In this document: in pieces, positions 4,116-52,866 of the stretch | How positions within the stretch are numbered: position 1 is the stretch's first letter | Layout of the letters: each line of letters begins with the position of its first letter | Notes under the pieces: generated by a model | The model's database searches: none | Told to the model about the DNA's origin: nothing | What the model saw: the letters and a program-made list of their open reading frames with translations, nothing else | Position numbers and translations under genes: made by a program | Source of the DNA: Calditrichia bacterium | GTDB lineage: Bacteria > Calditrichota > Calditrichia > RBG-13-44-9 > J075 | Reading direction: 5' to 3' | Length of the DNA: 64,000 bases | NCBI GenBank assembly: GCA_028284905.1 | Contig: JANQQU010000030.1 | Coordinates: 186,001 to 250,000 of the forward strand

Positions 4116-4135
4116 AAAATTTCACCTGAAATTTT
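4116..4135. terminator. AT-rich hairpin between convergent genes
   Basis: AAAATTTCA and TGAAATTTT are perfect inverted copies separated by CC. They lie between the antitoxin stop (4020) and the convergent kinase stop (4134-4136), overlapping the latter. The position suits a bidirectional transcription end, but the stem is AT-rich and the loop small, so this is tentative. Confidence 0.35.
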
Positions 4136-7100
4136 AAAGTTTTGACTTCAAAAAAGCCGATGGCGTCTGCCCAAATTCCTTTTTAAAACAACGAGCGAAG
4201 TAGGAGAGGTTGTTGAAGCCTGCCTGGTAAGCAACTTCGGATACATTCCCGGCGTGTTGTTCTAGCAATTGCTTGGCACGGCGAAGGCGAATGGTACGGA
4301 TAAAATCTGCCGGGCGCTGACCGGTGAGGGCACGGATTTTTCGCTGCAAGTGGCGCTGACTCATATTGAGCGCTGCACTGAGCGCTTCCGGACCGAAAGT
4401 CTCGGATTCGATTTCTGCTTCAACCGTTTTCATCAAACCTTCGATGAATGCTTGCTCGGTGGAGGGCATTTCCACCGGGGACGGTTGAAGCAATCCTTCC
4501 TGGCGATAAATCTCGCGCAGCTTGCGGCGCTGCTCGATGAGGTTCTTTACCCGGGCTTTCAGTTCCCGGGAATTGAAGGGTTTGGTAAGATAATCATCCG
4601 CACCGCTTTCCAGGCCGCTGAGCTTGCTCTCTTCACCGGCTTTCGCCGTTAACAGTATTACCGGAATATGGCTAGTGTGGACGTCCTGCTTCAGTTTCGC
4701 ACAAAGCTGGTAGCCGTCCATCCCGGGCATCATCACATCGCTGATAATCAGGTCCGGCATGTCGGTCAGCGCCTGTTGAAAGCCGCTTTTCCCGTCCGCT
4801 GATTCAACGACCCGGAACTGCTCCTGCAAATGTTCACGAATATACCGGCGGACATCTCCATGATCTTCGACAAGGAGAATGATTGGTAAATCTTTTTTCT
4901 CCGTATCCGCTACGGGTGTAACAATATCATTGGTTTGCATTGCAATAAGCGGTGTTGAAAGTGGCTGCTTTTCGCCAGGCGTCTCCGCAATCTCTTCCGG
5001 AAGATAGGCCGACCCGGAAACAGGAATGTGGAGAATAAAGCGACTGCCTTTTCCCACAACGCTTTCCACAGAAATTTTACCATGATGTAATTCGACTAAC
5101 TCTTTGGTTAAAGCAAGACCAATCCCGGAGCCGGGACCTTCCCGGGTAGCGCCTCGTTCATCACGGGTTTGATAGAAGCGGTCGAAGATGAAGGGAAGAT
5201 CCTCAGGGGGGATGCCACGGCCAGTATCGTTGACGGTGATTTTAAGCCAGGGTAAAGTTTGGGAATTTGAAACTTCGAATTCGGAATTCGGAATTCGGAA
5301 TTCCGCATTCGAAGTTCTGCATTCAACATTAATCTTGCCGTTTTTGGGGGTAAATTTAAAAGCATTGGAAAGCAAGTTAACGATGATCGTTTCCAGTTTT
5401 TCTGAGTCGAAATAATATTCGGGAATATCTGTATTTGATAGGTTTTCTTCGAGTTTCAATGCAATCTGCTTTTGCTCGGCTAGAGAGGCGAAGGACATTA
5501 CGATCCCTTTCATAAACGCAGGGAGATCGCCCGGGGATACTTTCAATTTAAGCTTGCCAGCTTCCAGGCGGGAGAGATCCAGCAATTGATTGATCAGATG
5601 CAGCAGCCTTCGGGCATTGCGCTGTATCCTTTCCAAATCGGTCTTCCGGGAGGCGTCCTTAGCGCTTTCCAGCCAGTCTTCCAACGGTCCGATTATCATC
5701 GTGAGCGGCGTGCGGAATTCGTGACTAATGTTGGCGAAGAAACGGGATTTAACCCGATCCATTTCTTCCAGCTTCTCGGCCTGCTCCCGAATAGTCTGGG
5801 TGCGCTCTGCTACCAGGGATTCCAGGCGGCGATTTTTTCCCCGTAGCTGACGCACCCGCCACTGTACAATTGCGCTGATTAGCCCGATCGCCAGGAGAAA
5901 ATACAGTAAATAGGCCCAGGTGGTGCGATACCAGGGGGGGAGAATTGTGAAGGCAAAAACTGCCTCCTGCCCCAATTCACCATCACCGCTTTTCGCCTGC
6001 ACGCGAAATTGAAAATCGCCTGGCGGCAAACTGGTATAATCCCGGTGCGATTCCACCCGCCAGTCCGACCAGCCACGATCAAATCCTGCCAGTTGATAGC
6101 GATAGCGCAATGCTTCCGTTGCCTGGTAATCCGTAGCCGCGAATTGAAAGCGCAATGCGTTGGCGGAAAATGGTAATGCTGCAGCGGCATCGGGGGGAAC
6201 AGCACCACTGCCGCCGGCGAAGATGAGCGTATCCGCGCTTTCTACCCGCCGGATGAGCGTTTTTAGCGGCGCTGCCAGAGAGGTGCCTGCTTCCGGCTGG
6301 AAACGGAGGAGTCCTTCGGTACCACTTAGCCAGAGTGTGCCATCATCATCCGGATAAATATCGAGCAGCCCGCCGATTTCCTGCAGGCGAACCGGGGAGA
6401 GCGAAGCGAGTACTTGGGGGGATGCTCCAGCGGTACTAATCCGCCGACAAAACCGTTGCCGCTCGATCCTCCCGCTAATCCAGATCGTGCCGGATTGCCC
6501 TTCGGCAATACGATAGATGCGGGTTGTGCTATCCGCATAGATATCTCCCCAACTGCTGTCCGGAACAATCCGGTCGTCATTTGGCCGGTAACGATAAAGG
6601 CCATGGCGAGTGGCAAAGCGCATTTCTCCGGCAACATTGGCTAGGTGGATTGAGGTCAGTGGTCGTCCATCGAGGCTGTCGAAGCTGGTAACGGAAAGTG
6701 TGTCCGAAACTGCGGCAGTCAGGGGAACATTCGGCAATTTGAGGCGATGCAGCGCTTTCCGTCCCCCGACCCAAAGATTGCCGTGCGTATCTTCAGCGAT
6801 ACTTACAACATAATCAGAAAACTTCTTCAGTGAATATATTTGTAGAGGACGACCGGGCAGATTTTCAATAATGGATAATGTTCGGTAAGTGCCTTTGTAG
6901 AGCCAATCCGGGCGCTGTTGTGATGCGAGAATTTTAGTGACGCCTGGAGTGCCCGGCAATAGCTTCGCCTCACCAGCAGCAATCTCATAAACGCCACGAT
7001 GGCCGCCGGCTAAGAGGTGTTCACTCGAATTTGAAAGTGTGTGGGCGGTGCTGCCGATGCCCGGGAGGGTTTCGAACTGTGCTGGCTTTTCGATGCCCGG

Positions 7101-8231
7101 ATTTAAAGCAAATGCACCCATGCGGGTTGCGGCAAAGAGGTCGCCCCGGTAACGAAATACTGCGTTTACATTGCCTTCCAGGCCATTAGATGCGGCAAAG
7201 ATTGAATAGGGCGAAGGCGTTTCAACCCGGGCAAGGCCATCGGCCAATGCGAGCCAAAGGCCGTCCTGTGCATCCCGGTATATATAATTGATAGTGTTAT
7301 CCCGCAGTCCGGACTGGCGATCGATAATTTGCAACAGTGTGCTGCTACTGTCGATAATTGCCAGTCCCCGGCGATGGGTGGCAAGCGCATAACGGTCGCC
7401 AGGGAGTTGTAATGCCCGGAAGACCAGGCTGCTTTTCAGAAATTCATCGGCTGGACTGCTGAGCGGGCGAACGTTGTTCGCATCTATCTCGAACCATCCG
7501 TCGAAACGGGTCAGTATGCGGAATTTACCGGCTCCGGCAGGAAAGATACCGGCAATTCCTTTCTGGATGAAAAAATCGCCGACCCGGGGAAGTTTTAGCG
7601 AATCCCCAACAAGTTGTTTGAGACCAATTTTCCATTCGCGGACAAAAAAGTGCGTCCCGGAAGACATTGCAGTATGGAAGAGGGTTTTTGGTTTCCAGGC
7701 TTGCAGCGTCTTTCCATTCCAGCGAAAGAGCGCATAATAGGCACGAAAAAAAACATCATTCCCGATAGGAATACACTCACCGACGCTTTTGAAATCGCGC
7801 AAAGAATCCGGGACAAAATCCTTCAAAGATACAAACTGCAGCGCACCTTTTTCATCGTGGGAGAGATAGCCGAGATCGTTACTGCCCCCAACATAAATGG
7901 TGCCGTTTGCATTGCAGAGCGACCGCGCGGGCATATTTTCCGGAAGCTTGATCAATCGCCACTCTACACCATCATAAACGAGCACACCGGCACCATTTGC
8001 GACATAAATTAACCCGAGGGAATCCTGGGTAATTGATTGATTGACGGTGCCGGCGCGGTAATCGCGGGGGCGAAAATTTTGAATATGGGGAATGCCGTTC
8101 TCGGCCCAATTTGTGGCGAAATTTTCCTGAGAATAAGCGGGGACGGGGGATAGGAAAAGATAAATCAATGCAGCCAGCAGCAGGTGCGTTGGGAAAAGGT
8201 CGCTCCGAATGGTGGTCACGATGCTTTTCAT
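4134..8231 (-). CDS. One-piece hybrid two-component regulator: propeller sensor, histidine kinase, receiver, AraC-type DNA-binding domain
   Basis: The product has 1365 residues. Order: signal peptide (about 1-35), regulator-propeller repeats (about 36-700), a Y_Y_Y domain (about 730-800, YRYQLAGFDRGWSDW), one membrane helix (about 803-825), a coiled coil, HisKA with His837 in NISHEFRTPL, HATPase with NLLSNAFKFTP, DTGRGIP and GSGIGLAL, a receiver with phospho-acceptor Asp1165 (IISDVMMPGMDG) and the KPF lysine, and a C-terminal AraC HTH (about 1255-1362). This is the hybrid two-component (HTCS) layout known from Bacteroidota, where the periplasmic propeller binds a ligand (glycan fragments in Bacteroides) and the HTH controls nearby operons. 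Here the neighbours are secreted surface proteins rather than glycan-use genes, so the ligand is unknown. Oddly, residues of about 966-988 between HATPase motifs N and G1 are encoded by an interspersed DNA repeat (5265-5333). Confidence 0.95.
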   Translation of the reverse strand: MKSIVTTIRSDLFPTHLLLAALIYLFLSPVPAYSQENFATNWAENGIPHIQNFRPRDYRAGTVNQSITQDSLGLIYVANGAGVLVYDGVEWRLIKLPENMPARSLCNANGTIYVGGSNDLGYLSHDEKGALQFVSLKDFVPDSLRDFKSVGECIPIGNDVFFRAYYALFRWNGKTLQAWKPKTLFHTAMSSGTHFFVREWKIGLKQLVGDSLKLPRVGDFFIQKGIAGIFPAGAGKFRILTRFDGWFEIDANNVRPLSSPADEFLKSSLVFRALQLPGDRYALATHRRGLAIIDSSSTLLQIIDRQSGLRDNTINYIYRDAQDGLWLALADGLARVETPSPYSIFAASNGLEGNVNAVFRYRGDLFAATRMGAFALNPGIEKPAQFETLPGIGSTAHTLSNSSEHLLAGGHRGVYEIAAGEAKLLPGTPGVTKILASQQRPDWLYKGTYRTLSIIENLPGRPLQIYSLKKFSDYVVSIAEDTHGNLWVGGRKALHRLKLPNVPLTAAVSDTLSVTSFDSLDGRPLTSIHLANVAGEMRFATRHGLYRYRPNDDRIVPDSSWGDIYADSTTRIYRIAEGQSGTIWISGRIERQRFCRRISTAGASPQVLASLSPVRLQEIGGLLDIYPDDDGTLWLSGTEGLLRFQPEAGTSLAAPLKTLIRRVESADTLIFAGGSGAVPPDAAAALPFSANALRFQFAATDYQATEALRYRYQLAGFDRGWSDWRVESHRDYTSLPPGDFQFRVQAKSGDGELGQEAVFAFTILPPWYRTTWAYLLYFLLAIGLISAIVQWRVRQLRGKNRRLESLVAERTQTIREQAEKLEEMDRVKSRFFANISHEFRTPLTMIIGPLEDWLESAKDASRKTDLERIQRNARRLLHLINQLLDLSRLEAGKLKLKVSPGDLPAFMKGIVMSFASLAEQKQIALKLEENLSNTDIPEYYFDSEKLETIIVNLLSNAFKFTPKNGKINVECRTSNAEFRIPNSEFEVSNSQTLPWLKITVNDTGRGIPPEDLPFIFDRFYQTRDERGATREGPGSGIGLALTKELVELHHGKISVESVVGKGSRFILHIPVSGSAYLPEEIAETPGEKQPLSTPLIAMQTNDIVTPVADTEKKDLPIILLVEDHGDVRRYIREHLQEQFRVVESADGKSGFQQALTDMPDLIISDVMMPGMDGYQLCAKLKQDVHTSHIPVILLTAKAGEESKLSGLESGADDYLTKPFNSRELKARVKNLIEQRRKLREIYRQEGLLQPSPVEMPSTEQAFIEGLMKTVEAEIESETFGPEALSAALNMSQRHLQRKIRALTGQRPADFIRTIRLRRAKQLLEQHAGNVSEVAYQAGFNNLSYFARCFKKEFGQTPSAFLKSKL
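5265..5333. repeat. GGAATTC-type interspersed repeat lying in frame inside the hybrid kinase
   Basis: The plus strand reads a run of TCGGAAT units followed by TTCCGCATTCGAAG and TTCTGCATTCAAC, the same unit structure found in the spacers at 43727, 47394 and 49930. On the minus strand it translates in frame as CRTSNAEFRIPNSEFEVSNS within the kinase HATPase domain. The family member, its position and its frame are directly visible; insertion by a mobile repeat is inference. Confidence 0.75.
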
Positions 8232-13084: not shown

Positions 13085-13156
13085 ATGAGTTTAAAGTTCA
13101 AAGTTCAGTGTTGAGAGTTAAGAGTTGTCCTGCTCGAACAACGAACAACGAACAAC
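13085..13156. repeat. Simple-sequence repeat, CGAACAA units
   Basis: CGAACAA is repeated three times at 13135-13155. It is preceded by an AGTTCAAAGTTCAG-like stretch (from 13095) that is roughly its inverse complement. It lies in the spacer between the lipoprotein and the DUF2279-like gene. Confidence 0.5.
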
Positions 13157-13160
13157 GACT

Positions 13161-14189
13161 TCAGAAACGCAGCAAATAAGCCACACTGCCATGCCGGTTC
13201 ACCCGAATCGCCGGGGCGGGGAAATGAATAGCATTCAGGAGCGATTTCAGGGAGCGGAGAAAGGCGCTGTTGCCGGGCAGCTTTTCCAGATTGTAGTCCA
13301 GGGAGAGATACCAGTCCCGGTATTTCAGTTCACGATTAGCCTGAGGGAGATTGCTGGCACCATAGCCGACGGCGATGTTTAGCCAGTCCGGCCAGTACGG
13401 CTGCAAAACTGTTGGCAGGAACGGATCTACATCGGCGCTGAGCCAGAATCGCATACCGTCATAATCACCGGCCGGGTATTGATAGGGATAGTAGCGAATA
13501 AAGCCGGGCGCATCGGCATAGCTGTCATTCTGGTAATAGCGGGAGGGATAATAGCTGATCTTGAATTGAAAATGCTGCAAAACGGGATAATAATCCTGCA
13601 AAATCGGATAACTGGCACCGAGAATATTCGCGACATAATCCGGCACGCTAAATCCCCAGTCGGCAAAGCCAGCGTCGGTTAATTCGAAAGCAGTATAAAG
13701 CAAAGTGCTGTTGGCGGCGCCAATCCACAACGATTTGCGACGAGAGATACCGGCGAAACGAAACATCGATGCCGTTGCGCGAGTCAGTTGAATATTGGCA
13801 TAGAAATGCCCGAGCTTGTCAATTTCCAGCCAGTAATTATTGACCCAGTCAAACTTGAAGCGAAAGCCCTGTTTTTCCCCGGACCACCAGGGCTCGATGT
13901 GGGCGGCGTAGGTGCCGGCCATGCCCAGGGCGGTTAGGCTGGAGACCAGGAAAAGTTTTCCCCGGGAAGATTTTTGTGGGGAAAAGGCTGATGGCTGATG
14001 GCGATAGGACAAGGGAGTGAATTCTTGAGATGATTCTCCGTTAATGGTTGCTGCAAGGCTGTCCTTGGAAATTGGCGCATCAGCGGCGGAATAAGCTGAT
14101 TGCTGCTCCTGGGCGAAAGCGGAGATAAAAATGCTGCCGGCGAAGATAAAAGCGAGAGCTATATGCTGAAGTTTATTTTTGAAACACAT
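13161..14189 (-). CDS. DUF2279-like (YfiM-related) envelope protein
   Basis: The product has 342 residues from the ATG at 14189, which has AAGGAG seven bases upstream; an in-frame ATG 26 codons further up lacks one. A signal peptide (about 1-26, ending SAFA) is followed by a low-complexity segment. From about residue 85 there is a hydrophobic helix, then the diagnostic stretch LEIDKLGHFYANIQLTRATA, a second hydrophobic segment and ELTDAGFADWGFSVPDYVANILGA, as in DUF2279 proteins. The C-terminal half is rich in Tyr and Trp and may form membrane-associated strands. Function in this family is unknown. The context of envelope and secreted proteins fits an outer-membrane or periplasmic role. Confidence 0.8.
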   Translation of the reverse strand: MCFKNKLQHIALAFIFAGSIFISAFAQEQQSAYSAADAPISKDSLAATINGESSQEFTPLSYRHQPSAFSPQKSSRGKLFLVSSLTALGMAGTYAAHIEPWWSGEKQGFRFKFDWVNNYWLEIDKLGHFYANIQLTRATASMFRFAGISRRKSLWIGAANSTLLYTAFELTDAGFADWGFSVPDYVANILGASYPILQDYYPVLQHFQFKISYYPSRYYQNDSYADAPGFIRYYPYQYPAGDYDGMRFWLSADVDPFLPTVLQPYWPDWLNIAVGYGASNLPQANRELKYRDWYLSLDYNLEKLPGNSAFLRSLKSLLNAIHFPAPAIRVNRHGSVAYLLRF

Positions 14190-40873: not shown

Positions 40874-40904
40874 CATTTGCCCATTTGCCCATTTGCCCAT
40901 TTGC
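40874..40904. repeat. Short tandem repeat CATTTGCC x 3.9
   Basis: Three full copies and one partial copy of the 8-base unit CATTTGCC lie just downstream of the permease stop codon, in the spacer before the methyltransferase. Possibly slippage-prone; no function visible. Confidence 0.8.
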
Positions 40905-40908
40905 AACA

Positions 40909-42423
40909 TTAACTGGCAATACGATTCTCAAAATTCACATCCTCGCTTTCCTCGACCGGTTGCGTTTGCCGAAGGAATGCTTCAAAAACTTCATCGTCGC
41001 TGATATCCAGGGTGCGAACTGCTGCGCTGGGAATCTTTAACGCGGAGAGCGCAAAGGATATGGCCGTGACCGTCAATGCCCCGCCGAGCACTGCCAGGGC
41101 CCGAATACCATAGTGAAAATGGGCATCAGCAAAAGCGAAGTAGAGGCCAATAAGTGTGGCAACAATACCGGTGATGGCCATCGGCACAAACCAGCGACCT
41201 TGAAACGCCCGGGCATTCGCAGGATGTAATTTGCGATTCGCCAATGCCAGCAGGTGAAAGGCGACATAGAGAATGATCCAGGCATAAGCGGCAGAAAAGA
41301 CCCAGTCGATAACCGCACTGTTATAAATTGCCGGAATAAGAAAGAGGGCAAGGCTGAATATCGTCGCCACTACTGGCGTGCCATACCTGGGATGCAATCT
41401 GCCAAAGTAGGTAGATAGTTTGCCAAAGAAGTAACCTTCCCGGGCGATGCTGTATAGAACCCGGGGAACTGCGGCAAAGATGACCACCAACGAACCGAGC
41501 GTTGCAGCGACGGAAGCAAGCGCCATCAGCAAATAGCCGCTATCGCCAAACATCAGGTAACCGACCGCCAATTGTGGTGCCTCGCCACCAGCAGCGATGC
41601 TGCCCTTCATCGCCGTTTGCCAGACCTCCAGCGGTGCACTGCCGGTAACCCCTAATCCCATGATTAGCGACGTTGCCAGGATGATCACCAGTCCGGCGAT
41701 AATACCCCGCGGTAAGGATTTACGCGGCGCTTTTACTTCTTCAGCCAGCGAGCAGGCGAATTCAATTCCGACGAAGCTCCAGAATGCCAGGGCCAGCCCA
41801 CCGGCAAGAATGCCACCGGCACCAAACCAGTCGAACATGCCGATGCCGGCATCAAGATTAGCGGTGGACCAACTACCGGTGTCACCGATACCAAGAAAAC
41901 CGGCGATGCCGAAAAACCAGCGAATTCCCAGCATAAGCAGCAGCAAACCTGCGCTAACCCAGGCGGTGGTACGGATGCCGAAAATATTTGGAATCACCGC
42001 CAGGACATATAAAATGATGATGTAATAACTAATGTCGATATTTGTGTTAAATAAAGCCTGCAGTCCAAAAGCGCCGGCAGCTGCTTCGCCGGAAACGGCA
42101 AATGCACTTACACCAAAAAAGGACAGGCCGAGAAAAACACCGAGGAAAGCACCGCGTCGTCCCTTGAAAATTGCCCGGGCATAATCGTATAATGCACCGG
42201 CCCGCGGATAGGAAACGCTTAGATCTGCCGCGGAAAGCCCTAAAAATAAGTTGATAATAAATCCGAATAGTAAAGCAACGGCGAACGCGCCACCGAGAGT
42301 AAAGAATCCGTTAAAGTCACTAACCAGCGTACTGGCAGCGACAACCAAAGCAATCCCGGCAACCATTACCTCCCAGGTGCCCAGCGATTTGCTCAGGGTT
42401 TGTTGTTGAAGTTGTTTGGACAT
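40909..42423 (-). CDS. APC-family amino acid permease
   Basis: The product has 504 residues from the ATG at 42423, which has AGGAGA upstream. About 12 membrane helices are visible. The N-terminus reads SLGTWEVMVAGIAL, and the conserved stretch after helix 6 reads GIEFACSLAEEVKAPRKSL then PRGI. This places it in the amino acid-polyamine-organocation family, which moves amino acids or amines by secondary transport. The exact substrate cannot be read. It faces away from the membrane AraC regulator at 42617 across a 193-base region with four related half-sites, so that protein probably controls it. Confidence 0.9.
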   Translation of the reverse strand: MSKQLQQQTLSKSLGTWEVMVAGIALVVAASTLVSDFNGFFTLGGAFAVALLFGFIINLFLGLSAADLSVSYPRAGALYDYARAIFKGRRGAFLGVFLGLSFFGVSAFAVSGEAAAGAFGLQALFNTNIDISYYIIILYVLAVIPNIFGIRTTAWVSAGLLLLMLGIRWFFGIAGFLGIGDTGSWSTANLDAGIGMFDWFGAGGILAGGLALAFWSFVGIEFACSLAEEVKAPRKSLPRGIIAGLVIILATSLIMGLGVTGSAPLEVWQTAMKGSIAAGGEAPQLAVGYLMFGDSGYLLMALASVAATLGSLVVIFAAVPRVLYSIAREGYFFGKLSTYFGRLHPRYGTPVVATIFSLALFLIPAIYNSAVIDWVFSAAYAWIILYVAFHLLALANRKLHPANARAFQGRWFVPMAITGIVATLIGLYFAFADAHFHYGIRALAVLGGALTVTAISFALSALKIPSAAVRTLDISDDEVFEAFLRQTQPVEESEDVNFENRIAS

Positions 42424-42616: not shown

Positions 42617-43729
42617 ATGAATACAGTGCAAACAATTGTCAGCATTCTGGGAGGCGTACAGGGACTTTTTCTGACGATCCTGCTATTTCAGGCCGGTAAA
42701 AAAAATAATAACGCCAATCGCTATTTGGCTTTTCTGCTATTGCTAATTTCCTTGACGCTAATTATCGCCTATCTTCACTTCAGCAAATTAGTGTTGGCAA
42801 CGCCGCACCTGTTAGGCATATCTCCCTATTTCACCCTACTGTACGGGCCACTGTTGTTATTTTATATCGCTGCATTTTTAGATGTAAAGACGCCGCTAGT
42901 AGAAAGAAAATGGCTGCACTTCATTCCCTTTGTTGTTTTGGTTGCAGCAAGCTATCAATACCTGGGCATGCCGACCGCCACGAAAATTTCTTACCTCACC
43001 AATATTTTCGAAGATCGTTACCAGCCGTCAATTAATCCGTTTGCAATGGTGCGGATTGCTCATCTCTTTATCTACTGCTTGCTGAGTTTTTATCTCTTCC
43101 GCAAAGTCTTTCGCAGCCGTCAGAATAATGGGCGAAATGTTTCGTCGCTGCAATTGCGTTGGGCCGGCAGCATTCTTCTCGCTTCGGTAATTATTTGGAC
43201 GATTTACCTTTCAACCTACTTTTACGATTTTAACCTGATGAACGAAATTCTGCCGGCGTTGATTACGCTGTCAATTTTTGTGGTGGGATTTGTCGGCCTG
43301 AAAACGCCGGAACTCTTTCAGGAAGGATTGATCCGCCGTTCCGGGAAAAAATACGAATATTCCCGTCTGACAAACGCGGCAAAAGAACGGTATTCCGAGG
43401 AGTTGCAGTTGTTGCTGGATGATCCGGCAGTATTTACTAACAGCGAGCTTAATCTGCAGGAACTGGCAACCCAGATGAATATATCCGCTCAGGAACTATC
43501 GCAAATTATTAATGAGAAATTCGGGCAAAGCTTTCCGGATTTAATCAATGATATTCGTATTGCGGAAACACAGCGGCGCCTGCAGGATTCTGCCAATGAG
43601 CACCTGACCATTCTGGCAATTGCTTATGATGTCGGCTTCAATTCCAAATCCGCCTTCTATAGCGCGTTCAAAAAAGTAACCGGAGAGACGCCCTCCGCAT
43701 TTCTCAAACGCAATAAAACTAGTAATTGA
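42617..43729 (+). CDS. Membrane-anchored AraC-family transcriptional regulator
   Basis: The product has 370 residues. The first 235 or so hold about seven hydrophobic segments (including VSILGGVQGLFLTILLFQA and YFTLLYGPLLLFYIAAFLD), a layout seen in FCB-group HTH proteins with membrane-embedded sensors. The C-terminal AraC HTH (about 265-367) starts SELNLQELATQMNISAQEL and ends VGFNSKSAFYSAFKKVTGE then TPSAF. It likely senses a signal in or across the membrane and regulates locally. The half-sites in the spacer suggest control of itself and of the divergent APC permease. The stop codon abuts a GGAATTC-type repeat. Confidence 0.9.
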   Translation: MNTVQTIVSILGGVQGLFLTILLFQAGKKNNNANRYLAFLLLLISLTLIIAYLHFSKLVLATPHLLGISPYFTLLYGPLLLFYIAAFLDVKTPLVERKWLHFIPFVVLVAASYQYLGMPTATKISYLTNIFEDRYQPSINPFAMVRIAHLFIYCLLSFYLFRKVFRSRQNNGRNVSSLQLRWAGSILLASVIIWTIYLSTYFYDFNLMNEILPALITLSIFVVGFVGLKTPELFQEGLIRRSGKKYEYSRLTNAAKERYSEELQLLLDDPAVFTNSELNLQELATQMNISAQELSQIINEKFGQSFPDLINDIRIAETQRRLQDSANEHLTILAIAYDVGFNSKSAFYSAFKKVTGETPSAFLKRNKTSN

Positions 43730-43803
43730 ATTCGGAATGGGGAATGGCGAATTCGGAATTCCACACTCTACATTCCGCATTCCGAATTCGAACTTCCGCA
43801 TTT
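43727..43803. repeat. GGAATTC/GGAATGC-type interspersed repeat, copy abutting a stop codon
   Basis: Begins directly at the TGA stop of the membrane AraC gene (TGAATTCGGAATGG) and continues as an imperfect inverted repeat of GGAATTC, GGAATGG and, on the right, CATTCCG and AATTCGAAC units up to about 43803. Confidence 0.8.
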
Positions 43804-43906
43804 ACATTGTCCTGTTTTATCTTTCCGGACGATTGCTGCCAGAAAAATCCTTATTATACTGCACACTAAAATTCCTGAACTCACGATTTAATTAAGGGGG
43901 CTGTAT

Positions 43907-44929
43907 ATGTTGCGTTATTTGATATTGCAATTGTTGGTAGTTATATCGCTTTCCGGTTTATTAATGGCCGATGAGCGTAAAGAAGAAAATGATTATGTGG
44001 CGATCATTCCGCTGGTGGATGCGGAACTGTTTGAGGTAGATGCGGCGCATTCCTACCTGGGATTTTCCATTGGTTTTCTCGGTTTGAATAAAGTGCGTGG
44101 GCATTTCAATCGTTATGAGATGGCCATTCTTTATAATGAGGATGATTACTCAAAATTGTCGGTGACGCTCTCCATCAACGCCGCCAGCATCGATACCCGA
44201 TTACGCATGCGCGATAAAGACCTGAAAGGTGAGAAATTCTTTGCGACAGAAAAATATCCGAATATCATCTTTCAAAGTAATAAGGTTGAGAAACAGGGCG
44301 AAATAATTCAAATGTATGGTGATTTAACCATGCGTGGGGTGACGAAAGCGATTGAGCTGCCACTGCGTCAAATTGTACGCCGCCAGAAGGATATGGGCTG
44401 GCAAAATGTGCGCATTGGCTTTGAAGGCACCCTGCAGGTAAATCGGAAGGATTTCGGGATTGATGGTGGTCGATTCTGGGGCAACAGAGCACTTTCAGAT
44501 ACAGTGACAATCGAATTCAACATCCTCGGTAACAAATTCAATCTGGATAAATTCAGCTTTCGCTCCGGCAATAAACCGACGGTTGGGGACACGCTCTGGC
44601 ACACGGCGTTGAACGAGAACGGCGAAGCGGCACTGGCCTTTTATCAGCGTTTACGAAAGGAGCAACCGGACCAATACGCCTACAAACCTCATAACATAAT
44701 GCTGATCGGGCGTCGCCTGGTAAACCGAGGGGATATCGATAATGGTATCAAATTCATTCAAACCGGCCTGGAGGAAGATCCGGAAAATCTGGATGGACAC
44801 CTGGCGTTGGGAGAAGCATACGCCTTAAAGGGGGATAGCGAAAAAGCAATCGCCCATTATAAAAAAGCACAGGCGATTAGCCCGGAGGAGCCGGCGGCGA
44901 TGGAGATGTTGCGACATCTGGATAGATGA
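43907..44929 (+). CDS. YceI-domain protein fused to TPR repeats
   Basis: The product has 340 residues with AAGGGGG upstream of the ATG. A signal peptide (about 1-21) precedes a YceI-like lipocalin-fold domain (about 38-205: LFEVDAAHSYLGFSIGF, DLKGEKFFATEKYPNIIF, GDLTMRGVTKAIELPL). YceI proteins bind long-chain isoprenoids or other hydrophobic ligands in the periplasm. The remainder (about 235-340) forms TPR-like helices (GEAALAFYQRLRKEQPDQYA, GHLALGEAYALKGDSEKAI), unusual for the family. The gene is alone, convergent with the permease gene at 45026. Ligand unknown. Confidence 0.88.
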   Translation: MLRYLILQLLVVISLSGLLMADERKEENDYVAIIPLVDAELFEVDAAHSYLGFSIGFLGLNKVRGHFNRYEMAILYNEDDYSKLSVTLSINAASIDTRLRMRDKDLKGEKFFATEKYPNIIFQSNKVEKQGEIIQMYGDLTMRGVTKAIELPLRQIVRRQKDMGWQNVRIGFEGTLQVNRKDFGIDGGRFWGNRALSDTVTIEFNILGNKFNLDKFSFRSGNKPTVGDTLWHTALNENGEAALAFYQRLRKEQPDQYAYKPHNIMLIGRRLVNRGDIDNGIKFIQTGLEEDPENLDGHLALGEAYALKGDSEKAIAHYKKAQAISPEEPAAMEMLRHLDR

Positions 44930-44942
44930 TTTTCGATTTTGG

Positions 44943-44984
44943 TTCGGCCGTAGAGAAAATTCATGAATTTTCTTTACGACCGAA
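44943..44984. terminator. Inverted repeat between convergent genes
   Basis: TTCGGCCGTAGAGAAAATTC (44943-44962) pairs with GAATTTTCTTTACGACCGAA (44965-44984) at 18 of 20 positions. It lies 14 bases past the YceI-TPR stop and 40 bases from the convergent permease stop, so a shared transcription end is likely, although no T-run follows. Confidence 0.45.
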
Positions 44985-45025
44985 TCGAACGGGCATAACA
45001 AAATCCCCTAGGCGGCAGACCGAAA

Positions 45026-47383
45026 TCATTCATGCCGCAAAGCATCGACCGGATTAGCAAGTGCTGCCTTGATTGATTGATACCCGACCGCAAGCACAGC
45101 GATCGCCAGCGCAAATAGTCCTGCCAGCAGAAAAGCGTAGAGGCCAATTTCCGCCCGGTAGGCAAATTCTTGCAGCCAGGTATCCAGTAAGGTATAAGCG
45201 ATCGGGGTTGCGATCAAAAAGGCGATGATGATCAAGCGGAAAAATTCCCCGGAGAGCATCGTGATTACGTTGGTGACGGAAGCGCCCAGCACTTTCCGGA
45301 CGCCAATCTCCCGGGTGCGCCGCTCGGCAGAATGGGATGCCAGGCCGAAAATACCCAATCCGGCAATTAATACCGCCAGACCGGCAAACCAGGAAACAGC
45401 TGTTCCAGTGGTCTGTTCCGGGCGATAGAGGTTGGCCAGGTCTTCCTCAAGAAATTGATATTCCGTCGGGTATTCCGGGGCGAATGATTTTGCGGTGCTT
45501 TCCAGATAGGCGAGCGCCTCATCGGAATTGTCCGCATTGATCCGCACGGTAATGATCCGCGCTTCTTCCGGTGAAAGCATGATGACCAGCGGATTAATTC
45601 GACTGCGTAGATTATCAAAATTGAAATTCTTTACCACGCCGATAATTTTCCAGGTTTGCCCATACATTAGAAATTCTTTACCGAGCGGCTCCTGAAAACC
45701 CATTTGTCTGGCAGCTTCTTCATTTACAACGACAGCATCGCTGAGGTCGCTGGGAAAATCCGGGGAAAAACTGCGCCCCTGCACGATTTCCATTTGATGG
45801 GTGCGAAAATAATCATAGTCAACTTCCCCGCGATTCATGACGATTTCCGCAGCCGGGTCTTCCGGGTGCGAGTTCAGCACCGTCGCGGCGGACCAGGACC
45901 AAACCGGCAGATCGCGCCCGGCAGTGACATCCAATATGTGTGGACTTTGTTTTAACTGATTTTTGAAAGCAGCAAAATTGCCGGCAATTTCCGGATTAGA
46001 TAAGTAATAAACCAGTTGCGCTTTGTTATAGCCGAGGTCTTTGGTCTGTAGAAAGTTCAGCTGCTTAAAAATGCCCAAAGTCGCAATAATCAAGACAATC
46101 GAACAGGTGAATTGACCGATGACCAGCACTTTGCGAAAGCGTCCACCGCGGGGTGTTGCAGCGCCTTTCAGCGTATGTAAAGGATGAAAAGCGGAGAGAA
46201 CGATCGCCGGGTAACCGCCAGCAATTAAGCCGGTAAAAAGTGCGAAAGAAAATAGTAAAAGTGCCGTAGTTGGTTCGGTGAATGGTTGAAACGCCAGCTC
46301 CCTGCTAAACAGATTGTTGAAAAAGGGAAGAGAAAGTTCGAGCAGCACCACGCCTATGAGCATCGCCGCCAGTGCTTGGAGCACCGATTCCCCCAAAAAC
46401 TGCAGGATGATCTGCGAACGATGTGCACCGACCGTTTTTCGCAGGCCAATCTCTTTCATCCGCTTTTCAGACTTTGCCGTGGATAAATTCATAAAATTGA
46501 TGCAGGCGAGGATTAATATGAATGCCGATACCAGCATCAGGGTATAGAGCAAATCGATATTGCCGTGGCGAGGATGAATATCATAGGAAAGATGACCGGA
46601 ATGCAGGTAGATATCTTTCACCGGTTGGAGGGATAAACTCACTTGCGATTCCGGATGTTCTCGTTGGAGATCCACGTTAATTTTTGCCTGAAGATCGGCG
46701 GCGCTAGTTGTTGGATGCAGCAGTAAATAAGTAGAGAAATCGAATGCCTGAGATTCGTCCAGATTGAGGCCGAACATTTTATGAGCTGCCGTGGAGAGCA
46801 CCATTTCGAAATTCAGATGGGACTGCTGTCCGGACTTCAAAACACCGCTGACCCGAAAACTGCCATAATCTTTAAACTCGAGAATTTTTCCCAGCGGATT
46901 TTCATCCTGAAAATATTTATTAGCGATGCTTTCGCTAAGTACTACCGAATTGGGATCATCGAGTGCTCTAGTGGGGTCGCCATGTAAAAACTGGTAAGAG
47001 AAGATCCGAAAGAATGCCGGATCTGCATAACAAAATGATTTCTCCAGGAATGATTTTTCCCCATAGCTAACCAAAGCGCGATTCCGGTAGTTCAGGAAGG
47101 CCGCTTCGGCAATTTCCGGATAATCTGCTTTCAGATAACCCGCTGACGAAGATTGGGTAAGAGCAATCGGCCATACTTCCCCGTTGCGGGTAAGATTGGT
47201 CGTCACCCGGTAGATATTATCTCCATTTTCATGAAAACCATCAATACTCAGATCGTCCTGCACAAAAAGATAGATCAGCAGGCAACAGGCCATGCCGACC
47301 GCCAATCCACAAATGTTGATAAAGCTAAACCCTTTATTGCGGGCCATATTTCGTAAGGTTACCAGAAAGTAGTTTCTGAACAT
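45026..47383 (-). CDS. FtsX/MacB-type duplicated permease (orphan)
   Basis: The product has 785 residues from the ATG at 47383, with CAGGAGA upstream. The 31-codon longer frame only reads through a GGAATGC-type repeat. The first helix follows MFRNYFLVTLRNMARNKG and contains GLAVGMACC. A periplasmic MacB-like domain, three helices near 290-440, a second half with another helix and periplasmic domain, and three terminal helices give the duplicated-permease plan. The last residues are VDALRHE, a motif shared by all five permeases here. MacB-type permeases need an ATPase, but none is encoded nearby. It is the last of three tandem copies; substrate unknown. Confidence 0.9.
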   Translation of the reverse strand: MFRNYFLVTLRNMARNKGFSFINICGLAVGMACCLLIYLFVQDDLSIDGFHENGDNIYRVTTNLTRNGEVWPIALTQSSSAGYLKADYPEIAEAAFLNYRNRALVSYGEKSFLEKSFCYADPAFFRIFSYQFLHGDPTRALDDPNSVVLSESIANKYFQDENPLGKILEFKDYGSFRVSGVLKSGQQSHLNFEMVLSTAAHKMFGLNLDESQAFDFSTYLLLHPTTSAADLQAKINVDLQREHPESQVSLSLQPVKDIYLHSGHLSYDIHPRHGNIDLLYTLMLVSAFILILACINFMNLSTAKSEKRMKEIGLRKTVGAHRSQIILQFLGESVLQALAAMLIGVVLLELSLPFFNNLFSRELAFQPFTEPTTALLLFSFALFTGLIAGGYPAIVLSAFHPLHTLKGAATPRGGRFRKVLVIGQFTCSIVLIIATLGIFKQLNFLQTKDLGYNKAQLVYYLSNPEIAGNFAAFKNQLKQSPHILDVTAGRDLPVWSWSAATVLNSHPEDPAAEIVMNRGEVDYDYFRTHQMEIVQGRSFSPDFPSDLSDAVVVNEEAARQMGFQEPLGKEFLMYGQTWKIIGVVKNFNFDNLRSRINPLVIMLSPEEARIITVRINADNSDEALAYLESTAKSFAPEYPTEYQFLEEDLANLYRPEQTTGTAVSWFAGLAVLIAGLGIFGLASHSAERRTREIGVRKVLGASVTNVITMLSGEFFRLIIIAFLIATPIAYTLLDTWLQEFAYRAEIGLYAFLLAGLFALAIAVLAVGYQSIKAALANPVDALRHE

Positions 47384-47393
47384 AACGTCTCCT

Positions 47394-47502
47394 GAATGCG
47401 GAACGATACAAATGCGGAATGCGGAATTCGGAATGCGGAATTTAATGAGCTGCATTTTCAATTCCGCATTCGCCATTCGCCATTCCGCATTTGTATCATT
47501 CG
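47394..47502. repeat. GGAATTC/GGAATGC-type interspersed repeat between permease genes 1 and 2
   Basis: Arms with GATACAAATGCGGAATG and the inverse CATTCCGCATTTGTATC enclose shorter GGAATTC/GGAATGC units. The right end includes the stop codon of the permease gene at 47496. Coding of the repeat by a longer frame of the gene at 45026 is an artefact. Confidence 0.85.
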
Positions 47503-49913
47503 TATCTTAATGCATCAACCGGGTTGGTTAACGCTGTTTTTATGGCCTGATAGCTTACCGTTAACAATGCGATGAGTAAGGCCAGGCCGCCACTGAGGAA
47601 AAATAACTCCCAGCTGATGTTAATGCGATAGGCGAAAGTGTCCAGCCAGCGATCCATGATATAATACCCCAATGGTGCGGCGATGAGAAAAGCAATCGCT
47701 ACCAGTTTCAGAAAATCTGCGGAAAGCAGAACGATAATCTCCGGCACAGTCGCGCCCAGCACCTTCCGAATGCCGATTTCCTTAAAGCGCTGCCGGGTGG
47801 CGTAGGCGGCCAGGCCGAACAATCCCAGACAGGCGATCAGTAATGATATTGCGACAAAAGCGGAAAAAAGTTGCCGGAAAACTCGCTCGGAACGGTATTG
47901 GTGACCGAGGCGCTCGTCAAGGAAACTGTAGCGGAAAAGCGCTTCGGGAAAGTGCTGTTGCCAGGCTGCTTCAACCAAAGCGATGGTCGCGGGAATATCT
48001 GCGGTATTGATGCGAACGGTAATCCGCGAAAAGCGGCCGCGCGGAGAAATGGTGATTGCTACGGGATCGATGGTTTCCTGCAAGGAGGCGAAGTGGAAAT
48101 CTTTCACCACACCGATCACCTGCCCTTCCCGGTCACCACGTCTGAAAGGTTTGCCGATGGCGCTGGCAGCATCTTCCCAGCCGAAGGCAGCCACGGCGGC
48201 TTCATTCAGCACAAATCCGCCGACACTATCGGAAGCGAGAGCAACCTCAAAGTTTCTCCCGGCGAGGATATCCATGCCATACACCGGCAAAAAATGATGA
48301 TCCACGCCCAGGCGGTAAATGCTGCTGGAAACCGGATTCCCGCGTCCGTCAATCGTTTCTGCATGGGCATTGCCTAAGCCATGAACGATTAATCCCCGGG
48401 AAACGGTTAAGCCGCTGATGCTGGTGTTTTCCAGCAATTCATTGCGGAAGTTTTCGATGCCCGTTTGCACTTCGGAAAACCCGTTTACTTCCAGCACCAA
48501 TAAAGACTCCTGATCGAAACCGAGGTCTTTTTCGCTAATAAAGGTCATTTGCGATTGGATAACCCCAATCCCGAAAAGCAGAATGATGGAAACGGTGAAT
48601 TGGAAAATCACCAGTCCTTTCCGCAGGGCAATACCGCTGGCTGTCGACTTTAATGCGCCGCGCAGGGCAGCAATCGGTTGAAATCCGGAAATGACAAATG
48701 CCGGATAGAGGCCGGAAAAGAAGCCGGTAAAAACAGTTGCACTCAGCAACAGTAAAATGATCTTTGAGGAATAAAGATTCGATATTTTCGTTTCAATAAG
48801 CTGCTCGAAAAATGGCTGCGCCAGTTCTACCAGGAATAGGGAAAAGATGAAAGAAATGAAAGCGACTAAGAGAGATTCGGTCAGAAACTGGCGAATCAGC
48901 TGCGTTCTGCCGGCGCCGGCAACTTTTTTCACCCCGACTTCCCGGGCTCGATGCAGGGAACGGGCGGTGGCTAAATTCATGTAATTAATGCAGGCAATCA
49001 GCAAAATAAAAATGCCAATGGAGATGAATATATAAACCGTGTTGATGTTGCCGGTGGGGCGAATTTCGTAGCGCAGATCGGAGCCGAGATGAATGCTCGC
49101 GACCGACTGGAGCTGGTAATCATAGAACATTTGCATTTCGGCCATGCGTTCGCCCATATGTCGCTTCGCGAAAGCCGGTAGTTTGGCAGTTAACTGCGCC
49201 GGATCGCTGCCTTCTTTGAGCAGGAGATAGGTGTAATAGCGATTCCAGAACCAGGCGGAACGGTTGGTGTGTAAATCCGGCACCAGCGCATCAAAAGTGG
49301 CGAAGGAGCCAAGGAACTTAAAAGTGAAATGGGAATTGGCCGGAGGATCGGGAATGACGCCGGTAACCTTGTAAGAAGCGCCGCGGCCATCGCGATCGTA
49401 GACAAAAAGAATTATCTCCTGCCCAACAGGATTTTCTGCGCCAAAATATTTTTTTGCCATGCTTTCCGTCAGGACAACTGTAAAAGGATCCTGCAGGGCA
49501 GTGGATTGGTTGCCGGCAGAAAGTTCGAAACTGAAGATGTCAAAAAAACTTTGATCGACAAAAAGGACATCGTCTTCGAGAAATTGTTTTTCACCGCGCC
49601 GGACAATACAATCATTCTCGTCGATGCGCGTCGCGTTTTCAATCTCCGGAAAATCGTTGATTAGCGCTGCTGCCATTGGGGGACTGCTAACCGCCTGGGA
49701 GAATACTTCCGAGCCGGTGGTTACTGTGCCGGCCAATCGGTATATTCTTTCATGATGGGCAAAGTGCTGATCGTAGCTCAGCTCGTTAATCACCCAGGCT
49801 GCAATCAGGGCGAAACAGGCCAGTCCGGCAGAAAGCCCGGCGACATTGAGAAAAGTATAAATCTTTCCTCTGGCGAGAGAGCGAAAAGCGATGGTTAGAT
49901 GATTCCTGAACAT
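47496..49913 (-). CDS. FtsX/MacB-type duplicated permease (orphan)
   Basis: The product has 805 residues from the ATG at 49913 (GGAGACC upstream). The 40-codon longer frame translates the repeat and is rejected. It opens MFRNHLTIAFRSLARGK, then GLSAGLACFALIAAW as the first helix, and closes VDALRYE. The duplicated plan of two FtsX-like halves, each with a periplasmic MacB-like domain and three or more helices, is clear. The motif KEIGIRKVLGA in the second half is shared by the other copies. It is the middle of three tandem permeases, separated from both neighbours by the same type of repeat. No ATPase partner is present. Confidence 0.9.
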   Translation of the reverse strand: MFRNHLTIAFRSLARGKIYTFLNVAGLSAGLACFALIAAWVINELSYDQHFAHHERIYRLAGTVTTGSEVFSQAVSSPPMAAALINDFPEIENATRIDENDCIVRRGEKQFLEDDVLFVDQSFFDIFSFELSAGNQSTALQDPFTVVLTESMAKKYFGAENPVGQEIILFVYDRDGRGASYKVTGVIPDPPANSHFTFKFLGSFATFDALVPDLHTNRSAWFWNRYYTYLLLKEGSDPAQLTAKLPAFAKRHMGERMAEMQMFYDYQLQSVASIHLGSDLRYEIRPTGNINTVYIFISIGIFILLIACINYMNLATARSLHRAREVGVKKVAGAGRTQLIRQFLTESLLVAFISFIFSLFLVELAQPFFEQLIETKISNLYSSKIILLLLSATVFTGFFSGLYPAFVISGFQPIAALRGALKSTASGIALRKGLVIFQFTVSIILLFGIGVIQSQMTFISEKDLGFDQESLLVLEVNGFSEVQTGIENFRNELLENTSISGLTVSRGLIVHGLGNAHAETIDGRGNPVSSSIYRLGVDHHFLPVYGMDILAGRNFEVALASDSVGGFVLNEAAVAAFGWEDAASAIGKPFRRGDREGQVIGVVKDFHFASLQETIDPVAITISPRGRFSRITVRINTADIPATIALVEAAWQQHFPEALFRYSFLDERLGHQYRSERVFRQLFSAFVAISLLIACLGLFGLAAYATRQRFKEIGIRKVLGATVPEIIVLLSADFLKLVAIAFLIAAPLGYYIMDRWLDTFAYRINISWELFFLSGGLALLIALLTVSYQAIKTALTNPVDALRYE

Positions 49914-49929
49914 AGCGGTCTCCATTTTT

Positions 49930-50032
49930 CGAATGCGGAATAATATCGAATTCGGAATGCGGAATGTGGAATGCGGAATTTCAAGTAATTCTACATTCCG
50001 CATTCGCCATTCGCCATTCCGCATTCGCCTCA
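49930..50032. repeat. GGAATTC/GGAATGC-type interspersed repeat between permease genes 2 and 3
   Basis: Left units (CGAATGCGGAAT, TTCGGAATGCGGAATG) and right inverse units (ATTCCGCATTCGCCATTC, repeated) fill nearly the whole spacer. The right end touches the stop codon of the permease gene at 50030. Confidence 0.85.
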
Positions 50033-52417
50033 TTCGTATTTCAAAGCGTCCACTGGATTGGCCAGCGCGGCGCGGATCGCTTGTGCGCTGACAATCGCCA
50101 GTGCGATCAACAGGGCGAAGCCGCCGCTGAGGAGGAAAATCCAGCCTCCGATATCAATGCGATAGGCGAAGTTTTCCAGCCAAAGATTGAGTATGATCCA
50201 AGAAATTGGCACGGCAATTAAATTTGCAAGAACAACCAGCCAGGCAAATTCCAGGGAAAGCATTTTCGTTATATCAAAAACACTGGCGCCAAGCACTTTC
50301 CGTACGCCGATCTCTTTCCTGCGCTGTGCGACGGTAAACGCGGCCAGCCCCAGTAGGCCGATGCAGGCAACCAGCAGGGCAAGAATTGTAAAATAGCCAA
50401 CGGTTTCTCCCAGCTGCCGTTCATTGTTATAAAGCTGATTCAGGCGCGCATCGAGAAAAGTAAAAGCGAATGGGAAGTTCGGGGATAGCGTTGCCCAGGT
50501 CGTTTTCAGATTGTCGAGTGTTTCGGAAATATCCCCAGCCTGTAAACGCAGATAAAAGTAATTGTATTTTTCCGGGGCGATAAACATGATCATCGGTTTA
50601 ATATGTTCCCGCAGGGAGCGGAAGTTAAAATCTTGCGTCACGCCAATAACCGTGGCTTGCCGGCCATACCCCGGCAGCGCAACCGGTTTGCCGATAATGT
50701 TTTCAGCGCCGAGTAAATCCGCAGCTTGTTTGTTTAGAATGATCCCTTCTTTTGCATCGGTTGGAAAATCGAGGGAAAAATTGCGGCCGTCCAGTAAGGA
50801 AATCTCCATTGCGTCAATAAAATTATGGGTGACGCTGAGCATGCGAAATGTGCCTTCCTGCAATTGTCCGTGCTTTTCGTAACTGGCAGATATTGCCCAG
50901 TCCCCACCGGCCAGTTCCCCGGAAGAGATTGCGGCATCGAGAACGCCGGAGGTATTGGCAAAGCGCTGCAATGCACCATCGAAATCCCGGCGAATAGTGT
51001 GATCATCGATGGGGATGGCAATGACCTGCTCGCGATTGAATCCGGGATCTTTACTGTTAATGAATTGCAATTGCTGGTAAATCGTCAATGCGCCGGCGAG
51101 GAGAACTGCCGAGGCGGCGAACTGGGTAATGACCAGCGTTTTCCGGAGATTGCTGCCGCGACTGCTAAGTTTACTGCCGCCTTTCAAAATTTTTGCCGGA
51201 CGAATCTGCGATAGAAAAAGTGCCGGATAGCTGCCGGCAAAAATGCCGGTAAGTAAGGCAATCGCCAATAGAATAAAAAGGAGATCCGGTTGCGAGAAGA
51301 GATTCAACGCGAGCTGCTTGTCCAGCATTTGATTGAAAAATGGCAGGCTTAGTTCGACCAAACCCAGCGCAGCTACCAGCGCGATGAAGCTAATTAGCAA
51401 GGCTTCCCCGATAAACTGGGCTATCAGACTGACGCGCCTGGCCCCGACCACTTTTCGGATGCCGATTTCTTTCGCGCGGGTACTGGCCCGAGCGGTAGCG
51501 AGATTCATGAAGTTGATGCTGGCGACAATCAAAATAAGTATGGCAATGGCGGAGAGGATATAGACATCGTTAATGCTGCCCATCCCGGCAGGATCCATTT
51601 CGCTGCTGAGCTCGGAATGAAGATGAATATCCGGCACAGCTTGCAGATATGGTTGCAGATCCGCTGACCATTCCTCGCTAATGTGCTTACTCAGCAGCGC
51701 CGGTATTTTTTTGGTAACAGCAGTGGCATCTGCATTGTCATTGAGGAGCAGATAAGTATGATAATTAAACATCCCCCAATTCTCCTGCCAGCCGGCGTGG
51801 GTTCGGGCATGGATTTCGTAGGGTAGTAAGAAGTCGAAGCGCAGGTGGGAGTTGCCGGGCACATCGGCAATGACTGCCCGAACGACATATTCCCTGCGAT
51901 TGTTGATAGTCACCGTTTTTCCGAAAGCAGGCGTTTCTCCAAATAGTTTTTCAGCAAGAGACGCCGTTAAGACGATGCCATCCGGTGATGCCAGCGCAGT
52001 AGCGCCGTCGCCAGTTAGGAATGTAAAAGTGAACATTTCGAAAATTTGCGGGTCGGCATATTTGCCGCCGTCTTCATAAAAGGTATTCTCGCCTTGTTGT
52101 AGCAAGCAACGCCGCACTTTCCGAAAGCGGACAAAATTATCTACCTCCGGTAATTCGCTGGTCAGCATCGGCCCCCATGGCGCACCAACGGTGGAGAGGC
52201 GGGAAATGCTATCACCGGCATTCTTCGAGTTTGTCACCACCCGAAAGAGGCGATCGGCATTCTCATGAAAACGGTCGTAGCTAAGTTCCTCGCGCACGAA
52301 GAGAACAATTAGGATGGTGCTGAAAAGGCCAAGGGTTAAGCCAAGGATATTGATCCAGGAAAACATTTTGTACTTCCGCAAATTTCGCAGGGCGATTTTC
52401 AGATAGTTGGCGAACAT
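50030..52417 (-). CDS. FtsX/MacB-type duplicated permease (orphan)
   Basis: The product has 795 residues from the ATG at 52417 (AAGGCA upstream, weak). The 27-codon longer frame comes from a CCACGGAT-family repeat and a spacer, not from the gene. It opens MFANYLKIALRNLRKYKMFS and has GLTLGLFSTILIVLF as the first helix. A central block of helices (LATARASTRAKEIGIRKVVG) and a C-terminal block (VAQRRKEIGVRKVLGA) mark the two halves. It ends VDALKYE. First of three tandem copies, transcribed toward lower coordinates. No nucleotide-binding partner is nearby, so it would need an ATPase from elsewhere or act without one. Confidence 0.9.
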   Translation of the reverse strand: MFANYLKIALRNLRKYKMFSWINILGLTLGLFSTILIVLFVREELSYDRFHENADRLFRVVTNSKNAGDSISRLSTVGAPWGPMLTSELPEVDNFVRFRKVRRCLLQQGENTFYEDGGKYADPQIFEMFTFTFLTGDGATALASPDGIVLTASLAEKLFGETPAFGKTVTINNRREYVVRAVIADVPGNSHLRFDFLLPYEIHARTHAGWQENWGMFNYHTYLLLNDNADATAVTKKIPALLSKHISEEWSADLQPYLQAVPDIHLHSELSSEMDPAGMGSINDVYILSAIAILILIVASINFMNLATARASTRAKEIGIRKVVGARRVSLIAQFIGEALLISFIALVAALGLVELSLPFFNQMLDKQLALNLFSQPDLLFILLAIALLTGIFAGSYPALFLSQIRPAKILKGGSKLSSRGSNLRKTLVITQFAASAVLLAGALTIYQQLQFINSKDPGFNREQVIAIPIDDHTIRRDFDGALQRFANTSGVLDAAISSGELAGGDWAISASYEKHGQLQEGTFRMLSVTHNFIDAMEISLLDGRNFSLDFPTDAKEGIILNKQAADLLGAENIIGKPVALPGYGRQATVIGVTQDFNFRSLREHIKPMIMFIAPEKYNYFYLRLQAGDISETLDNLKTTWATLSPNFPFAFTFLDARLNQLYNNERQLGETVGYFTILALLVACIGLLGLAAFTVAQRRKEIGVRKVLGASVFDITKMLSLEFAWLVVLANLIAVPISWIILNLWLENFAYRIDIGGWIFLLSGGFALLIALAIVSAQAIRAALANPVDALKYE

Positions 52418-52866
52418 GGGATGCCTTTTCGGTTTCTGGTTGTTTTCTTTTTGCCACGGATGGCACGGATTAACACGGATGCTTCGGGCACTTTTCATCC
52501 TTCGTCAGACTCATGATGAATGTAGGTAAAAATTTAAAACTGTGTGTATCTGTGTGTATCTGTGTTATCCGTGGCCGAAACTTTCAATAAAAGCTTCAAC
52601 AAGCACTATGCCACATTGAATGCTCTCAGGATGAATTTCTTCGATGTTTTAATTGAATTTTTTCTAAGGTGATATTTTTCAAATGCTTATGAAAGGTAGC
52701 CCTGTGTAAAATAATCCGGCTAGAAAAATTCTTGTTTTCGAATTAGCTTCAAGGAGTTACGGAGATGTCGTAAAAAATGTTGGTAGATGAACAGCGGATG
52801 TCCGAAAATGGACAATCGAATGAGCGTTACAACAGTAAATTTTTTCCGGCTCTTTTTTGTTAAGCT
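52418..52866. other. Spacer of 449 bases: CCACGGAT-family element, otherwise gene-free
   Basis: Upstream of the three-permease operon. The element occupies 52454-52575; the remainder (52576-52866) is AT-rich, has no plausible frame and shows no convincing promoter or tRNA. The promoter of the permease operon should lie in this region. Confidence 0.5.
52454..52575. repeat. CCACGGAT-family interspersed inverted repeat, copy 4
   Basis: GCCACGGATGGCACGGATT from 52454 and an inverse right arm ending TGTTATCCGTGGC at 52575. In the right arm the CTGTGTGTAT unit is duplicated. It contains a degenerate CATCCTTCGTCAGACTCATG core, akin to the one in copies 1 and 2. Confidence 0.85.

Follow-up and report, generated by a model that had tools for sequence, protein, structure and literature searches.

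The window analysed here, a stretch of 64,000 nt, carries three palindromic arrays of 7-nt units (heptads) beside an AraC-type regulator gene and three MacB_PCD/FtsX permease genes. These features and three further arrays discussed below are as follows:

5276..5311, no strand: in-frame heptad array encoding the peptide SNAEFRIPNSEFE, in a HATPase-domain loop of the hybrid sensor kinase gene 4134-8231 (minus strand)
13135..13158, no strand: heptad array (CGAACAA)n, an unrelated family, ending 2 nt from the stop of gene 13161-14189 (minus strand)
40874..40904, no strand: octad array (GGCAAATG)n, unrelated to the heptads, beginning 4 nt past the stop of the amino-acid permease gene 40909-42423 (minus strand)
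42617..43729, plus strand: AraC-type regulator (HTH_18/HTH_AraC), its stop touching palindrome 1
43727..43802, no strand: heptad palindrome 1, overlapping the TGA (43727-43729) of the AraC-type gene; inverted repeat 43728-43789, fold z -6.25
45026..47383, minus strand: MacB_PCD/FtsX permease 3, ending ...NPVDALRHE* (Pfam); 38% identical to permease 2
47394..47498, no strand: heptad palindrome 2, between permeases 2 and 3; 45-nt arms at 84%, fold z -8.93
47496..49913, minus strand: MacB_PCD/FtsX permease 2, ending ...NPVDALRYE* (Pfam); 38% identical to permease 1
49931..50029, no strand: heptad palindrome 3, 2 nt past the stop of permease 1 (minus strand); 33-nt arms at 85%, fold z -6.09
50030..52417, minus strand: MacB_PCD/FtsX permease 1, ending ...NPVDALKYE* (Pfam PF12704, PF02687)

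The repeat is a palindromic array rather than a simple heptamer. A left arm of GGAATGC/GGAATTC-type heptads (core NGAATNN; family unit of the GGAATKC type) leads through a short loop into a right arm made of their complements. The bare 7-mer occurs in the window no more often than expected (25 copies against 32.8), and the non-random feature is the tandem palindromic arrangement, with RNA folding z scores of -6.3, -8.9 and -6.1 for the three copies. An earlier note on this DNA had all three copies touching the stop codon of the preceding gene, with the TGA inside the repeat end at 47496 and 50030. The coordinates hold, and the inclusion of the stop differs from copy to copy. The TGA of the AraC-type gene at 43727-43729 shares bases with the first unit, T[GAATTC]GGAATGG, and so belongs to the repeat by 2 nt. 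At 47496-47498 (minus strand), TAC and then AAATGCGGAATGG come after the TGA; GAATGATACAAATGCGG pairs with GAACGATACAAATGCGG at the opposite end of palindrome 2 at 16/17 positions, and the stem base takes in GAATGA of the permease end, mirrored at the far end of the stem, so that this stop truly lies within the hairpin base. At 50030-50032 (minus strand), GG separates the TGA from CGAATGCGGAATGG; this stop lies beyond the predicted stem, 2 nt before the array.

A two-unit pattern of the family has 252 matches in the 8.55-Mb, 93-contig genome, compared with 5 for a reversed control. A stricter pattern gives 117 matches here and 0 or 1 in other genera of the same family, indicating that the expansion is private to this lineage. 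A three-unit match is present in many phyla, among them Clostridia, Planctomycetes, Acidobacteria and cyanobacteria. A literature search on the unit sequence returned no description of it and one incidental match.

Placement relative to genes was examined in 705 kb, comprising the window and 56 stretches around arrays that were picked for array content, with genes predicted by a codon-model caller. The array is closer to the stop than to the next start in 29/29 spacers between tandem genes, at a median of 6 nt past the stop, and the nearest start, its position in this sample being approximate, is never less than 20 nt away. In 9/9 convergent pairs the array lies within 8 nt of at least one stop. 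Counting every spacer with a stop, 28/38 have the array within 10 bp of one, where uniform placement expects 10.2 and uniform placement with 40 bp reserved before starts expects 15.8; none of 200,000 uniform-placement simulations reached 28 (p < 5e-6). Leaving out the window does not change the result (26/35 within 10 nt). The excess persists where over 100 bp of the spacer is not array: in 13/20 such spacers the array is no more than 10 nt from a stop, while 1.3 would be expected, or 5.9 when the 100 bp before starts are forbidden, and the crowding spans -4 to +10 nt around the stop, long spacers included. Heptad arrays thus lie about 0-15 nt past stops far more often than spacer geometry predicts, and mapping the copies against stops, as the earlier note had proposed, reveals a placement that is not random.

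The same note had suggested that the repeat prefers a stop-codon context. The preference for stops stands; a preference for the stop-codon sequence does not, since all three stops are used next to arrays (TAA/TGA/TAG = 19/16/9) and a search across the sampled arrays found no fixed phase between stop and heptads. Free phase and the use of all three stops also rule out the stop codon as part of the repeat unit. Once the array is subtracted, tandem spacers have the length of element-free tandem spacers of 4 bp or more (median 108 vs 106, KS p 0.46), which fits insertion without loss of sequence; the median residual spacer of convergent pairs is 15 bp. The hairpin stem does not appear to be generally copied from gene ends: outer flanks pair like shuffled pairs (4/64 above the 95th percentile), with only the copy at 47409 in the window and locus L182 clearly standing out.

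Other repeat families in the same stretches, each a small set, served as controls. The octad array GGCAAATG lies 6-18 nt from the stop in 5/5 tandem spacers, the window copy at 40874-40904 among them. The palindrome family CTCGCRATGAC is found 20-1025 nt from stops and the CACGGATT family 32-386 nt from them; neither hugs stops, and the stop rule is therefore not general to all repeats in these spacers. In pooled loci from foreign genomes, where gene calls are rougher and the element's own TAATTC edge apparently supplies the stop at several loci, 24/59 tandem arrays lie within 10 nt of a stop compared with 5/59 within 10 nt of a start, and 12/16 convergent arrays lie within 10 nt of a stop. 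The uniform-placement test is weak in this pool (36 vs 30.1 expected with 40 bp reserved, p 0.012). One rumen Clostridia genome (G040) follows the stop rule (5/8 tandem, 5/5 convergent); a second (G043) mostly lacks it (2/8 tandem), and its heptads resemble one end of a longer element.

Arrays also occur away from stops. Eighteen were called inside predicted genes of the 705-kb sample, mostly in frame in hybrid sensor kinases, where they occupy a HATPase-domain loop or the linker between HATPase and receiver domains, and one in the condensation-adenylation linker of an NRPS. Divergent spacers make up 9/47 of the array-bearing spacers, and at L184:5740-6280 three tandem tRNA-Gln genes have a heptad palindrome in each spacer, a few nt from both tRNA ends. 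Insertion therefore needs no stop, and sites that tolerate extra sequence are enough. The hybrid sensor-kinase genes at L197, L170, L185 and L190 have several in-frame arrays between the HATPase and receiver domains, some joined to a CTGTCCCTTCGGGG-like motif and giving peptides such as NSEFRIPNSEF; stretches of this kind in protein predictions are repeat DNA and call for caution in annotation.

The arrays are in turn a landing site for mobile elements, as REPs are for some insertion sequences. An IS and a 206-bp MITE (L166:5757-5962) with CAATNGTRTGCGAAAG ends sit within heptad arrays, nearly always after AAT or AT, as is the case for 7/13 such ends found genome-wide. The loci concerned include the contig ends L158, L155, L169, L176 and L159.

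In the permease operon, two repeats fill both spacers, as had been noted: the 112 nt between permeases 2 and 3 and the 116 nt between permeases 1 and 2 are nearly all array. Behind the stop of permease 3 (45026) we looked for an array and found none. Separately, a CTGTGTGTAT decamer array lies at 52540-52573 of the window, upstream of the start of the first permease. Elsewhere in the genome, three more permease-type genes have arrays of their own, unlike these, in the corresponding position past the conserved C-terminus, and this end is intact in 5/5 array-bearing permease-type genes, indicating that the stop is old and the array came later. The earlier note expected the two operon spacers to be more alike than other copies if permease and repeat had been duplicated as a unit. 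They are indeed each other's best match among 38 long arrays, by a narrow margin (60 vs 55; 59 vs 57). The joint duplication itself is highly improbable: this mutual match speaks for it, but the neighbouring permeases are only 38% identical, too old a divergence for spacers so alike, the third has no array, the three other permease-type genes carry different ones, and the margin over unrelated loci is small (60 vs 55). Local copying between the two spacers is possible, and independent insertion, perhaps with such copying, fits the operon better than unit duplication.

A second informative junction separates a kinase gene from a regulator gene (L180/L214). In five other genera (G001, G004, G010, G011, G012) the two genes overlap or have 0-2 nt between them; here a 99-nt heptad array starts 3 nt past the kinase stop. 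An unrelated palindrome, flush with the stop, occupies this junction in G005; its family has 47 matches in that genome and none in the present genome, G002 or G003. At L215:1296-1490 this palindrome consists of GTCATTTGCCTKCGGC-like units, and its family fills spacers starting at the stop. Yet another kind of array takes up the whole junction in G002 and extends into the C-terminal end of the kinase. The three arrays are independent insertions at one place in three genomes. The G005 family shows no excess over geometry (12/35 observed vs 17.7 expected); the shortness of the spacers is enough to account for its position near stops, and geometry is therefore part of the picture.

Once in place, arrays appear to change. 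At L156:5669-6254 a 152-bp tandem unit made of the 3' tail of a gene, its stop and a heptad array is present in about four copies, whose flanks are alike while their heptad strings differ. The arms within one element match no better than arms across elements, and the two arms show no covariation (p 0.75). The differing strings and the lack of better matching within elements together suggest turnover in place.

As to class, the family consists of dispersed extragenic palindromes in the tens to hundreds of copies expected of REPs and REPINs (252 vs 5 for the control), and its tandem, dispersed, intergenic 7-nt units are those of an STRR-type repeat. There is no fixed consensus stem-loop with a 5' tetranucleotide, the unit strings varying freely, and no recurrent flank motif beyond the heptads and insertion-sequence ends. 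As regards a possible MITE or IS nature, the elements in this genome are bounded by no shared end sequence, and their outer flanks pair at chance level. A search for a transposase or other mover found none. Two Y1 transposase (PF01797) genes have no heptad array in about 3.3 kb around each, so a RAYT is rejected as the mover for want of association with arrays, as is the one group-II-intron-like reverse transcriptase. The arrays are also not ordinary intrinsic terminators, with a mean of 3.3 T in the 10 nt past the array and at least 6 T in only 5/44.

The closest positional parallel is the REP/BIME of E. coli, likewise a set of dispersed extragenic palindromes crowded behind stops. According to PMC12306157, which draws here on earlier work cited there, many E. 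coli REPs lie 1-20 nt past a stop; RepRanger places 446 of 4,072 predicted REPs within 15 nt of a stop, and REPs at up to 15 nt are reported to act on translation (PMC12306157). The heptad family differs in being a variable 7-nt-unit array with no fixed REP consensus, in having no REP-associated Y1 transposase found flanked by its arrays, and in lying within 10 bp of the stop in 28/38 spacers. It thus resembles REPs in position and departs from the REP/RAYT system in transposase and consensus. The passages of PMC4476775 on the Nostoc tRNA-Leu intron, an example of the short tandemly repeated heptanucleotides of cyanobacteria, describe two P6b heptad classes, which share with the present arrays degenerate 7-nt units in both stem arms and 7-nt length steps, and in which one unit class replaces another at the same site, comparable to the turnover here; those heptads form a structured RNA loop, have another unit sequence and, in those passages, come with no stop-codon rule. 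The TAACTGA heptamers of Beggiatoaceae (PMC4679880) are likewise many intergenic sets placed non-randomly beside genes, but they are direct rather than palindromic and anchored to starts, the largest class ending 1 nt upstream of the start (PMC4679880).

We give about an even chance to the reading that the heptad arrays are REP/STRR-like dispersed non-coding palindromes that inserted promiscuously and mostly survive directly behind stops. Copies would insert promiscuously, protein loops and linkers and tRNA flanks included, and the majority of surviving copies would be those immediately past a stop, where a hairpin would lie outside coding sequence and ahead of the promoter or ribosome-binding site of the following gene. 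There the hairpin would be the first structure towards the 3' end of the mRNA, and may be tolerated or bring a slight benefit as a 3' barrier; arrays may later turn over in place by unit slippage, and the stop codon itself would be no recognition sequence. Copy number and private expansion, the counts near stops (29/29 tandem arrays nearer the stop; 28/38 against 10.2; 13/20 against 1.3), the conserved C-terminus kept by 5/5 permease-type genes, the normal residual tandem spacer (108 vs 106), three unrelated repeats at the kinase-regulator junction of three genera, the in-frame arrays in HATPase loops, linkers and the NRPS linker, those between tRNA-Gln genes, and turnover in place (L156 copies, arm comparison) all agree with it. 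Three observations fit it less well: in long spacers the first 10-15 nt are crowded, whereas 20-190 bp separate other repeats of this genome from the stop; the search for a transposase or other mover found none; and G043 has mostly arrays not flush with stops (2/8 tandem). Some targeting or function is probably involved besides retention, which by itself should not produce such crowding so close to the stop in long spacers. Geometry on its own, with promiscuous insertion into short spacers so that anything inserted abuts the stop, would account for operon junctions, convergent pairs (median residual 15 bp) and the G005 family (12/35 vs 17.7), but we consider it improbable as a full explanation, given that the excess persists in long spacers here (13/20 vs 1.3, or 5.9 with 100 bp reserved).

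The crowding at -4 to +10 nt, long spacers included, could instead reflect a recombination or reverse-transcription process that delivers arrays of tandem units to the 3' ends of genes; R-loops behind stops, or mRNA ends trimmed back as far as the terminating ribosome, would be examples of its targets. The unrelated octad family shares the bias, which the CTCGCRATGAC and CACGGATT elements do not, and three unrelated families occupy one orthologous junction. Such targeting is nonetheless rather unlikely in view of the arrays inside genes, in divergent spacers (9/47) and beside tRNAs, the lack of a rule on stop-codon phase or identity, and the candidate enzymes, namely only two Y1 transposase genes, neither with a heptad array in the surrounding 3.3 kb or so, and a single group-II-intron-like reverse transcriptase. 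Somewhat more doubtful still, on our analysis, is a selected function, whereby the hairpin behind the stop would govern translation or mRNA decay of the upstream gene and be kept by selection. The hairpins are strong, they occupy the same range of positions in which E. coli REPs are reported to have an effect (PMC12306157), and the ribosome-binding region of the next gene is always spared (nearest start 20 bp); however, the array-carrying genes look functionally unrelated, the compared kinase-regulator junction lacks the heptad array in other genera, the arms do not covary, and T-runs are too few (5/44 with at least 6 T in 10) for ordinary intrinsic terminators.

Promiscuous insertion with survival behind stops is the reading we prefer, and beyond the heptads themselves a wider and tentative idea, which we hold to be unlikely, is that a single insertion process acting at gene 3' ends serves several unrelated families of tandem-unit palindromes, each lineage independently filling the same junctions with a private repeat. 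With similar reserve, that process might be coupled to translation termination or mRNA 3' ends. A sharp positional rule, two negative-control families and three families at one junction make the question of spread testable: new insertions should cluster at stops if they are directed to 3' ends. Taken with some of the E. coli REPs, the heptad family points to a common rule for where such repeats land or survive.
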